In this document: piece after piece, positions 19,960 through 22,559 of the stretch
Layout of the letters: every line of letters begins with the position of its first letter
How positions within the stretch are numbered: position 1 is the stretch's first letter
Assembly: GCF_003044935.1 (NCBI RefSeq)
Contig: NZ_POXP01000001.1
Location: 806,001-870,000 of the forward strand
Direction: 5' to 3'
Length of the DNA: 64,000 bases
Origin: Neisseria subflava
Lineage (GTDB): Bacteria; Pseudomonadota; Gammaproteobacteria; Burkholderiales; Neisseriaceae
Notes under the pieces: model-generated
The model's input: only the letters and a program-made list of their open reading frames with translations
Database searches by the model: none
Told to the model about the DNA's origin: nothing
Position numbers and translations under genes: made by a program

Positions 19960-20562
19960 ATGATTTTTTCCGATTGGCGCAGACTTACCGAAAATGAAGT
20001 CCGTATGGCAAAACAAGTTTTTGCGGACAGCATAAACTTCCACCGCATCAAAATATATCGCGGCATTCCACTTATACCCAACGCCAATACCGCCATTGCG
20101 CCCAATGGAAACATATACTTTCCGCGTAAACACTGCCCCGAAGATTTCACTCAAGCCGGGATCGCCTACAAAATCTGGCTGATTCATGAGCTGACACATG
20201 TCTGGCAACACCAGCGCGGTCACAAAGTTTGGCTTTCCGGCCTATTCATCATGCTCAAAGGCGGATACAGAAAACGCAAAGCTTACGCCTACCCCATCCC
20301 CTTACCCCACATCAACCAATTAAATATCGAACAGCAGGCAGACCTTATTGCCCACTATTTCGCAGCTACTTTTCTACCCAAAAACATTTACACCCCGCAA
20401 CAGCCTATTTTTCATACGGCCTTAGCAGATTTTCTTCACAACCCACACGACAAAAATCTATGCCCGAAATACTTGTCGGCAAAAAAACAACACTTCAAAA
20501 AGCAGAGTGAACAAATAAGCTATAATGAACAATCCGACACATCATCCAAAAGATCCCAAACC
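19960..20562 (+). CDS. Metallopeptidase-like protein, in frame with pgsA
   Basis: About 201 codons with no stop before the pgsA start; the full frame runs 19960-21123 (387 residues). The zinc-peptidase motif HELTHVWQH lies near residues 75-83, and the EQQADLIAHYF segment further on fits a third ligand region. The family is like the small putative metallopeptidases once labelled Vgr-related; substrate is unknown. No signal peptide. Either the product is fused to PgsA, or the region between has lost its stop and PgsA is made from its own start. The last 40 residues are low-complexity and hydrophilic, like a linker. Confidence 0.65.
20521..20526 (+). promoter_or_regulatory. Candidate -10 box of pgsA
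   Basis: A perfect TATAAT lies 37 bp before the pgsA ATG and inside the upstream frame. No good -35 hexamer is seen at 16-18 bp. Confidence 0.3.
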
Positions 20563-21123
20563 ATGCCTTGGAACATACCTATTTTACTTACCTGGATGCG
20601 CGTCCTATTAATCCCCGTGTTCACCATCCTATTCTATTTACCGAACACATGGATTCAACCACAAACCGTCAACTGGACAGCCGCTATCATCTTTGCACTT
20701 GCCGCTATTACAGACTGGTTCGACGGCTTTTTGGCACGCCGCTGGAAACAAACTTCCGACTTTGGCGCATTCCTTGACCCTGTTGCCGACAAACTCATGG
20801 TCGCAGTTGCCCTGCTCCTGCTCGTCAGCCTTGGCAGAACATACGCCATCTTCGCCATGATTATTATCGGACGAGAAATTACCATTTCCGCCTTGCGCGA
20901 ATGGATGGCACAAATGGGCAAACGCGGCAGCGTTGCAGTGGCCACTATCGGCAAATTCAAAACTACTGCCCAAATGATCGCCATCTTCCTTTTACTTATC
21001 GGTACGGACAAATATAACGACCCTTTCTATCTCATTGGTAACATATTGATGTTTATAGCATCTGTATTGACCATCTGGTCCATGTGCTACTACCTGAAAA
21101 TGGCATGGAGAGAATTCAAATAA
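20563..21123 (+). CDS. pgsA: Phosphatidylglycerophosphate synthase PgsA
   Basis: 186-residue membrane enzyme joining CDP-diacylglycerol and glycerol 3-phosphate, the first step to phosphatidylglycerol. The CDP-alcohol transferase motif is complete: DWFDGFLARRWKQTSDFG then AFLDPVADK. It has four or more membrane spans. The start MPWNIPILLTWMRV is the usual neisserial N-terminus, although the upstream frame reads straight into it. No strong ribosome site precedes it. The tRNA-Gly, Cys and Leu genes follow, the same order as pgsA-glyW-cysT-leuZ in E. coli. Confidence 0.93.
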   Translation: MPWNIPILLTWMRVLLIPVFTILFYLPNTWIQPQTVNWTAAIIFALAAITDWFDGFLARRWKQTSDFGAFLDPVADKLMVAVALLLLVSLGRTYAIFAMIIIGREITISALREWMAQMGKRGSVAVATIGKFKTTAQMIAIFLLLIGTDKYNDPFYLIGNILMFIASVLTIWSMCYYLKMAWREFK

Positions 21124-21217
21124 AATTTTTAAAAAAATAAAAACAAAACACTTGACGCACACAATTAAATCCATAATAATTGCGTCTTCTTCGATATACG
21201 AAGCAACAAATATCAGA

Positions 21218-21293
21218 GCGGGAATAGCTCAGTTGGTAGAGCGCAACCTTGCCAAGGTTGAGGTCGCGAGTTCGAGACTCGTTTCCCGCTCCA
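21218..21293 (+). tRNA. tRNA-Gly (GCC), copy 1
   Basis: 76 nt with encoded CCA. Acceptor GCGGGAA pairs with TTCCCGC; the anticodon loop reads CTTGCCAA; T loop TTCGAGA. First of four identical copies. Confidence 0.96.
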
Positions 21294-21327
21294 TACTGAT
21301 TACTTGTTGATTGTTCTTTTTCAATAT

Positions 21328-21403
21328 GCGGGAATAGCTCAGTTGGTAGAGCGCAACCTTGCCAAGGTTGAGGTCGCGAGTTCGAGACTCGTTTCCCGCT
21401 CCA
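21328..21403 (+). tRNA. tRNA-Gly (GCC), copy 2
   Basis: Identical to copy 1 over all 76 nt, with a different 34-nt spacer. Confidence 0.96.
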
Positions 21404-21427
21404 GTTTAATTTCAGATGCACTCAAAT

Positions 21428-21503
21428 GCGGGAATAGCTCAGTTGGTAGAGCGCAACCTTGCCAAGGTTGAGGTCGCGAGTTCGAGACTCGTTTCCCGCT
21501 CCA
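21428..21503 (+). tRNA. tRNA-Gly (GCC), copy 3
   Basis: Identical to copies 1 and 2; separated from copy 2 by 24 nt. Confidence 0.96.
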
Positions 21504-21524
21504 TTAAATCATGCATCCGAATAC

Positions 21525-21600
21525 GCGGGAATAGCTCAGTTGGTAGAGCGCAACCTTGCCAAGGTTGAGGTCGCGAGTTCGAGACTCGTTTCCCGCTCCA
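21525..21600 (+). tRNA. tRNA-Gly (GCC), copy 4
   Basis: Identical to the other three copies; 21-nt spacer from copy 3. Same strand and probably one precursor. Confidence 0.96.
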
Positions 21601-21631: not shown

Positions 21632-21705
21632 GGCGAGATAGCAAAGTGGTTATGCAGCGGATTGCAAATCCGTCTACGCCGGTTCGATTCCGACTCTCGC
21701 CTCCA
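21632..21705 (+). tRNA. tRNA-Cys (GCA)
   Basis: 74 nt with encoded CCA. Acceptor GGCGAGA / TCTCGCC, D loop with GG, anticodon loop ATTGCAAAT, discriminator U. The T stem has one C-A mismatch. Close to the E. coli tRNA-Cys layout. Confidence 0.95.
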
Positions 21706-21715
21706 TCCCTTTCAT

Positions 21716-21793
21716 GGCGGGGTGGCAGAGTGTTTATGCTATAAGGGGTGCAACCCTTATATAGGCCGGTTCAAATCCGCGCCCCCGCCTCCA
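21716..21793 (+). tRNA. Noncanonical tRNA-like gene with GCA anticodon
   Basis: 78 nt starting GGCGGGGTGGC and ending CCCCGCCTCCA, between tRNA-Cys and tRNA-Leu. A perfect 7-bp acceptor stem (GGCGGGG/CCCCGCC), U discriminator and encoded CCA are present. The D stem is only 3 bp and its loop reads AGTGTTTAT, lacking the GG dinucleotide. The anticodon arm can form 8 bp (TATAAGGG/CCCTTATA), leaving a 6-nt loop GTGCAA with U before GCA. The T arm pairs only with a bulged C. The GCA anticodon and U73 are the main cysteine identity elements, so it may be a variant tRNA-Cys. It could also be a degenerating copy. Confidence 0.65.
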
Positions 21794-21814: not shown

Positions 21815-21904
21815 GCCCGGGTGGTGAAATAGGTAGACACAACGGACTTAAAATCCGTCGGCCCTAAACCGGCCGTGCCGGTTCGATTCCGGCTCCGGGC
21901 ACCA
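21815..21904 (+). tRNA. tRNA-Leu (UAA)
   Basis: 90 nt with encoded CCA. Acceptor GCCCGGG / CCCGGGC, anticodon loop CTTAAAA giving UAA, and a long variable arm (CGGCCCTAAACCGGCCG) as expected of a class II tRNA. Confidence 0.95.
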
Positions 21905-21952: not shown

Positions 21953-21981
21953 GACAGCTTATTTGTAAGGCTGTCTTTTTT
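21953..21981 (+). terminator. Terminator of the tRNA cluster
   Basis: GACAGC and GCTGTC pair around an AT-rich loop and are followed by TTTTTT. It lies 48 bp after tRNA-Leu. Confidence 0.75.
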
Positions 21982-22037: not shown

Positions 22038-22500
22038 TGCAAAGGTCTCAGGCTATGACAATGAGGAAGACCGGTAGCATCTGGTAATCATCGTTTGCTG
22101 GACGGCATTATGCGCAAAGCCCACCGTAACCGTCCGCTGATGGAAGCGTAAACCAAACGTAACCGACATCTATCGAAGACCCGTTATGTGGTCGAACAAA
22201 GCTTCGGTACGCTGCACCGTAAGTCCCGCTACACTCGGGTAGCCTATTTCGGTCTGATTAAAGTGAGTGCACAAAGCCATCTGAAGGCAATGTGTTTAAA
22301 CCTGTTGAAAGCGGCTAACAGGCTAAGTGCGCCTGTTATTACCTAAAAGGCGGCCCGGATACCTGATTATCGGGTATCCGGGGAGAATAAAGAGGGAGGG
22401 GGGGTTGAGTAGAATCAGTGGATACTTGGAGCGAGAACAGCCGAAAATCTATGTTTGGATTTCGGCTGCTGGAAGGAAAAGGAATTTTGCAAAGGTCTCA
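22038..22500 (+). mobile_element. Remnant of the IS5-family element
   Basis: The right part of the same IS as at 14140. From 22051 to 22500 it aligns with the last third of that element up to the intact right end GGAATTTTGCAAAGGTCTCA. Immediately in front, 22038-22050 reads TGCAAAGGTCTCA, which is itself an IS right end. So an IS end is joined directly to internal IS sequence. The left part is gone. Confidence 0.85.
22051..22346 (+). pseudogene. Transposase fragment
   Basis: C-terminal part of the IS5 transposase. Against the intact copy it has CAA to TAG at the residue of RQHLEEH, a 1-nt deletion soon after, and a second CAA to TAA in the EAQTKRN stretch. Many silent and replacement changes show long decay. 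It cannot make transposase. Confidence 0.85.
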
Positions 22501-22519: not shown

Positions 22520-22559
22520 GATAAGGCCGTCTGAAAATCCTTTTTCAGACGGCCTTATC
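22520..22559 (-). terminator. hldD terminator, inverted uptake pair
   Basis: GATAAGGCCGTCTGAAAA pairs with TTTTCAGACGGCCTTATC, 18 bp after the hldD stop on the minus strand. Confidence 0.78.

Follow-up and report, generated by a model that had tools for sequence, protein, structure and literature searches.

Wedged between the tRNA-Cys and tRNA-Leu genes of Neisseria subflava is a 78-nt sequence that resembles a tRNA-Cys in some parts and departs from one in others, and the question it raises is whether it is a relic in decay, a spare cysteine tRNA of unusual appearance, or an RNA with work of its own. The DNA analysed (64,000 nucleotides, hereafter the window) holds a single tRNA cluster, read on the forward strand: four identical tRNA-Gly(GCC) genes (21218-21600) at its start, a normal tRNA-Cys(GCA) (21632-21705), the paralog that served as our yardstick, the odd tRNA-Cys (21716-21793), and tRNA-Leu(UAA) (21815-21904) as its final gene. 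A promoter-like site on the same strand (TTGACG, 17 nt, AATAAT; 21152-21180) lies 37 nt before the first tRNA, and a terminator-like hairpin of the intrinsic type (21953-21975, forward strand) with a T-rich tail reaching 21985 follows tRNA-Leu; matches to both occur at chance frequency (one found against 1.7 expected for the promoter, one against 1.2 for the terminator), and thus it is position alone that supports them. The odd tRNA-Cys is presumably transcribed with its neighbours. The surroundings include one 387-aa frame (19960-21123) in which a CDP-alcohol phosphatidyltransferase domain (pgsA-like) occupies the second half only (residues 204-373), and, directly downstream of the cluster, the remnant of a DDE transposase (22086-22343) with an in-frame stop, after which the remaining piece matches Pfam DDE_Tnp_1_6 and DDE_Tnp_1 above the cut-off. 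An inverted repeat at 22520-22559 contains GCCGTCTGAA, which we take to be the neisserial DNA uptake sequence, and is perhaps a terminator. The spacer between the odd tRNA-Cys and tRNA-Leu is short and AT-rich in the window, and in five other loci (L011, L016, L017, L026 and L100) appears by eye to form a hairpin.

Standard tools pass over this element although it is conserved like a house-keeping tRNA: ARAGORN called six tRNAs in the window and not this one, a search of 2.5 kb with the Rfam tRNA model at E values up to 10 returned no match to it, and the stretch alone scored 20.1 bits against RF00005, below the gathering score of 29. Relatives were found by BLAST with the Cys-Leu stretch, and 32 copies in 31 genomes of the genus went into a covariance model (R1). 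Over 83 Neisseriaceae genomes the R1 scores were bimodal, with 78-110 bits for the odd RNA and 44-58 for normal tRNA-Cys. An earlier note on this DNA would have counted absence from close relatives, or stems broken there, against its reading, and that refutation fails in 63 of the 83 genomes. Of these, 46 have a 78-nt form: 40 belong to the window's genus, Neisseria, which is represented by 46 genomes in all, and the other six are spread over five further genera. The remaining 17 have a 75-nt form (14/14 of g34, one of g29 and two of g30), which is also present in a Snodgrassella gandavensis record (L164) with a score equal to that of the g34 copies. The family in question holds human commensals and pathogens, and includes insect symbionts. 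Tandem copies, differing by one and two bases, occur in two Neisseria genomes (G005 and G075; L031 265-445 and L087 230-412). Normal tRNA-Cys alone was found in nine of the 83 genomes (G014, G032 and G072 of the genus, two of g28 and four of g32), so the odd gene is dispensable; neither gene was found in another 11, even with a wider second look, and those assemblies are therefore uninformative on absence. The absences were placed on a tree of CysRS from 20 genomes, in which support is mostly weak (5 of the 17 inner branches are starred, and the outgroup lies beside g28). Its starred branches force at least three changes to explain the absences, with G032 inside the genus on one such branch, a pattern that fits repeated loss, or possibly exchange by natural transformation.

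Of the 65 copies, 58 (from 56 of the 63 genomes) were read and gave 42 distinct sequences, against which the structure in the window was compared. The earlier note had the 78-nt sequence and its coordinates right, and it correctly described the 7-bp acceptor stem, U73, the encoded CCA, the anticodon stem of 8 bp around a GTGCAA loop, and the single bulged C of the T stem. On the forward strand, the 5' strand of the acceptor stem (21716-21722) pairs with 21783-21789, by standard pairs in 42/42 distinct copies; the D arm (21725-21739) has 3 bp and keeps G18 (21732), with U rather than G at position 19 (21733); the anticodon arm (21740-21761) consists of the 26-44 pair and seven further pairs around a 6-nt loop, with the anticodon GCA at 21750-21752; G48 (21764) is the partner of G15 in an E. 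coli-type Levitt pair (G15.G48 in 41/42 copies); the T arm (21765-21782) has 5 bp, a bulged base at 21780 and a position 56 (21772) that varies among relatives; and the 3' acceptor strand (21783-21793) ends in discriminator U73 (21790, U in 42/42 copies) and CCA (21791-21793). Two of the supposed oddities shrank on comparison with the paralog. The 3-bp D stem is no abnormality, as the normal tRNA-Cys has the same pairs 10-25, 11-24 and 12-23 and an A13.A22 mismatch, and E. coli tRNA-Cys is alike in this respect. The D loop, said to lack GG, has indeed exchanged G19 for U but has kept G18, a single substitution. The 75-nt form carries a 7-nt loop, GTGCAAA, on a standard anticodon arm, to which the 78-nt form adds two pairs while giving up one loop base; the lengthened arm with its 6-nt loop is present in 33 of the 42 distinct copies.

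That the cloverleaf is backed by covariation in the acceptor, anticodon and T stems is clear from the sequences themselves. Tested on 21 distinct genus sequences against 500 shuffles, 98.1% of cells paired (94.3% in shuffles), and both-sided changes affected 7 pairs and 22 cells, compared with 3.0 and 4.8 +/- 1.7 in the shuffles, none of the 500 being as high; of five covariation measures one, the number of further pair types, was not above the shuffles (12 vs 12.2). A control with slid partners, itself biased towards a structure derived from the same sequences, gave at most 61% pairing and at most two both-sided pairs. All seven both-sided pairs lie in the 8-bp anticodon stem (7/8 of its pairs), so that the compensatory changes for which the earlier note had advised looking across Neisseria loci are there, and the closing pair is among them, which supports the 6-nt loop. 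The outermost pair of the arm is G.A in 15/42 distinct copies, which counts against a strict claim of 8 bp, and mismatches further inside number three (two U.U, one A.C), leaving 300 of 318 cells paired. Elsewhere, compensated G-C to A-U changes occur at acceptor pairs 6-67 (one copy) and 7-66 (two copies), and the T-stem pair 51-63 goes from C-G to U-A in step in two of the 42 copies. Compensation is thus seen in every stem but that of the D arm, whose invariance leaves no covariation signal. The extra T-stem base, between 63 and 64, is C in 29 distinct copies, U in nine and A in four, never G, and in one locus (L073) it is able to pair with U50, so that the bulge may shift in that copy. The contacts U8-A14, G18-U55 and U54-A58 are invariant in the 42 copies. 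An extended D stem that appears in some minimum-energy folds was discarded, as by eye it is not kept in the variants.

A tRNA shape may be kept or merely not yet lost, and the spacers provided the measure of which. Segment identities were taken over 37 of the 40 genus loci (L090, L046 and L064 left out), or 666 pairs, of which 561 formed a divergent subset with both spacers less than 60% alike. Over these 561 pairs mean identity was 0.927 for the normal tRNA-Cys, 0.925 for the odd one and 0.920 for tRNA-Leu, while the two spacers stood at 0.396 and 0.393, the level of shuffled sequence (0.40). With tRNA-level identity beside spacers at shuffle level, the odd tRNA-Cys evolves like its functional neighbours: it is a real element, no decaying pseudogene, and the earlier note's proposal of a second cysteine-type tRNA under selection is borne out by this conservation and by the covarying stems. 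A shape preserved as carefully as that of the normal tRNA suggests that the RNA has a separate task, which may lie beyond the usual making of protein.

Among the parts of the molecule that have not changed are those by which a cysteine tRNA is recognised. U73, G2-C71, C3-G70, U33, GCA and A37 are invariant in 42/42 distinct copies, and the bacterial identity set for cysteine, according to PMC9976931, consists of U73, G2-C71, C3-G70 and GCA, while aminoacylation of E. coli tRNA-Cys also depends strongly on G15-G48. A full-length CysRS was matched once per genome in 22/22 genomes; a second CysRS or CysRS* was looked for in the same 22 and set aside, the other matches being partial, below 34 bits and readable as related class I synthetases. 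Given a complete identity set and a single full-length CysRS, charging is likely, and the odd tRNA-Cys is probably a substrate of that one enzyme. The normal tRNA-Cys of 57 loci (18 distinct sequences, 17 of the standard 74-nt length) shares the identity set, the 3-bp D stem and the short variable region, but differs in having G15-C48, G18 G19 and C56 in 17/17 of its 74-nt sequences and no T-stem bulge; the longer arm and 6-nt loop are confined to the 78-nt form. (The normal gene of L006, in genome G029, at 1702-1776, has one extra T in its D loop and is 75 nt.) In the odd RNA, G18 is followed by U19 or A19 and 19-56 is G-C in 0/42 distinct copies, being U19-A56 in 20, U19.C56 in ten (the window's group), A19-U56 in seven, U19.U56 in four and U19.G56 in one. 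With a Watson-Crick A-U or U-A in 27 of the 42, the elbow may be intact; outright loss of the elbow was considered and dropped for this reason, and we claim only that the pair is not G-C.

What, then, might a charged but ill-fitting tRNA do? An off-ribosome role is the best reading of these data. The proposal that we favour, tentatively and at somewhat less than an even chance, is of a dedicated second tRNA-Cys, probably charged by CysRS and poor at translation, that acts as a cysteine donor off the ribosome or as a sensor of charging. Inherited in Neisseriaceae and folding as a tRNA, it would be made from the Gly-Cys-Leu cluster, and its cysteine identity set would very likely bring it to CysRS. 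Two features common to all copies, the T-stem bulge at the site gripped by EF-Tu and the non-G-C elbow, would suit it badly to the ribosome; the 78-nt form has besides an anticodon arm longer by two pairs and a 6-nt loop, which would add to the poor fit; the RNA could then supply a reserved pool of Cys-tRNA to an acceptor reaction, or report on cysteine charging. The bulge and the elbow change are common to both forms and hence independent of the change in the anticodon arm, so the shared oddities point at EF-Tu and the ribosome generally more than at the reading frame. A more specific version is doubtful: that the Cys-tRNA is reserved for a non-ribosomal reaction undescribed in Neisseriaceae, and that in the 78-nt form the anticodon arm, no longer constrained by the ribosome, has drifted until its stem has 8 bp and its loop 6 nt, with the anticodon held only for CysRS. 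Counting against an off-ribosome reading are the invariant U33 and A37, both required for decoding but perhaps not by CysRS, the normal-sized anticodon arm of the 75-nt form, the Watson-Crick 19-56 pair of 27 copies, and the nine genomes that do without the gene. Families known to use aminoacyl-tRNA were sought in 19 genomes, 12 with and seven without the odd gene. ATE_C and LPG_synthase_C were each found in 0/19, with positive controls detected, PEARL C-domain and CDPS likewise in 0/19, with controls silent for both, and FemAB in 1/19, as one 358-aa frame above the cut-off in G005, a genome with two odd-RNA copies. None of the transferase families searched in the 19 genomes tracks the odd tRNA-Cys, which leaves sensing, or an acceptor reaction that would be new, as the best-supported role, if unproven.

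Two other readings are serious rivals. The odd tRNA-Cys may be a tRNA-shaped regulatory RNA and no aminoacyl donor at all: it could act as a decoy that occupies CysRS, RNase P or modification enzymes, or be a structured element within a larger regulatory transcript of the cluster. This we judge rather unlikely. Its predicted fold is more stable than that of the window's normal tRNA-Cys (-33.6 vs -22.5 kcal/mol), sponge activity is known for spacers in other tRNA operons (E. coli 3'ETS-leuZ), and tRNA-Other of Bacillus cereus, as characterised in PMC3399842, is a precedent; but the invariant U73, GCA and CCA and the near-invariant G15.G48 are what charging needs, and a loop of 6-7 nt enclosed by covarying stems leaves little sequence for pairing with a target. 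Altered decoding, which the earlier note had put first and which we weigh here as a specialised reader of UGC/UGU (slow decoding, frameshifting or stress translation), is unlikely. U33, GCA and A37 are what a decoder would keep, as are U54-A58, G18-U55 and U8-A14, and the 7-nt loop of the 75-nt form is of ordinary size; that same loop weakens altered decoding as the first choice, and the decoder would also have to work with a bulge in the region that EF-Tu contacts and, in most distinct copies, a 6-nt loop on a lengthened arm, with no second full-length CysRS in the 22 genomes as a recoding partner. That the gene is simply a redundant tRNA-Cys, normal in function despite its looks, is improbable: the tallied tertiary contacts are kept except 19-56, but the oddities are themselves conserved across the family and set the gene systematically apart from its paralog in the same clusters. 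Slow decay of a pseudogene, which the earlier note had also entertained and for which the low tRNA model score, the nine genomes with the normal gene alone and the broken outer arm pair might speak, is scarcely credible beside both-sided changes in the stems and neighbour-like conservation amid diverged spacers.

Several known tRNAs invite comparison, and the likeness to each, drawn here from passages of the papers cited, is partial. The non-proteinogenic tRNA-Gly species of staphylococci have GG18-19 changed and T-stem pairs needed by EF-Tu weakened, and are thought to escape EF-Tu for cell-wall synthesis (PMC4052509). Like the Staphylococcus aureus species, the odd tRNA-Cys would be an extra isoacceptor with a change in 18-19 GG and a T stem altered at the EF-Tu site; it differs in its amino acid, in keeping G18 where both positions are changed in S. 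aureus, in its T-stem bulge and lengthened anticodon arm, which those passages do not describe for tRNA-Gly, and in that tRNA-Gly has a known user, FemXAB (PMC4052509). Judged by Staphylococcus-type criteria, only G19 is changed, and the T stem, though bulged, is rich in G-C pairs. The selC* tRNA-Cys (PMC7609411) is likewise a minor cysteine tRNA with U73, GCA, a T-stem bulge and a long anticodon stem, but has an 8/4 branch, a long variable arm and an A bulge (51a) on the other strand, and in some groups its own SelB*/CysRS*, whereas the odd tRNA-Cys has a 7/5 branch, a short variable region, a bulge between 63 and 64 on the 3' strand and the single CysRS. The odd RNA was accordingly not assigned to selC*, as the 8-bp acceptor and 4-bp T stems, the 51a bulge and the long variable arm are all absent. 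Bacillus cereus tRNA-Other is a tRNA-like gene with a role outside translation, but lies beside a pathogenicity island and accepts lysine poorly in vitro, whereas the odd tRNA-Cys sits in a house-keeping cluster across the family (PMC3399842).

Full-text literature searches found no description of the odd tRNA-Cys, with supplements lying outside their reach, so that a prior mention is possible; it is absent from the tRNA passages of neisserial papers, and the word Neisseria is absent from the reviews of odd tRNAs, a subject for which Mukai 2017 is reportedly the main paper. Were it charged yet kept off ribosomes, a cysteine-tRNA-dependent step not yet described would be implied, and were it decoding, it would show what a 6-nt anticodon loop is capable of; because nature offers genomes with the 78-nt form, with the 75-nt form and with neither, the question of its role is testable.

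The search was also widened to the order and the class. R1 at an E value of 1e-12 matched 12 of 399 genomes of the order, ten of them Neisseriaceae; of the others, G187 was rejected as an ordinary tRNA-Cys, and the tRNA-Cys of G040 lacks G19 but has no bulge. In the same 399 genomes a pattern designed for G19-less tRNA-Cys had hits in 15: ten Neisseriaceae, G040, G209 (on the contig that holds L109, called tRNA-Cys by ARAGORN), G177 (tRNA-like by eye) and two chance-like places; among 369 genomes of the class it matched the window and one chance-like place only. In a loose scan of named genomes, which sets no bound on the range (80 of 116 stretches listed, R1 run on those 80 and ARAGORN on 21), sporadic G19-less tRNA-Cys without the T-stem bulge appeared in other proteobacteria among the matches listed (L137, L109, L132, L134, L142, L156 and L183). 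No shared neighbour gene emerged in a thin test on 20 chosen frames from five loci of this kind, most of the frames being without a Pfam match. In Cocleimonas flava (L137 408-677) the G19-less gene sits between tRNA-Gly and the normal tRNA-Cys. Within our own loci, L037 (G056:C328) has beside tRNA-Leu, upstream of 271, a tRNA-Cys-like copy whose 5' half is disrupted and which ARAGORN does not call, and the same genome carries an intact Gly-Cys-Leu cluster at L038.
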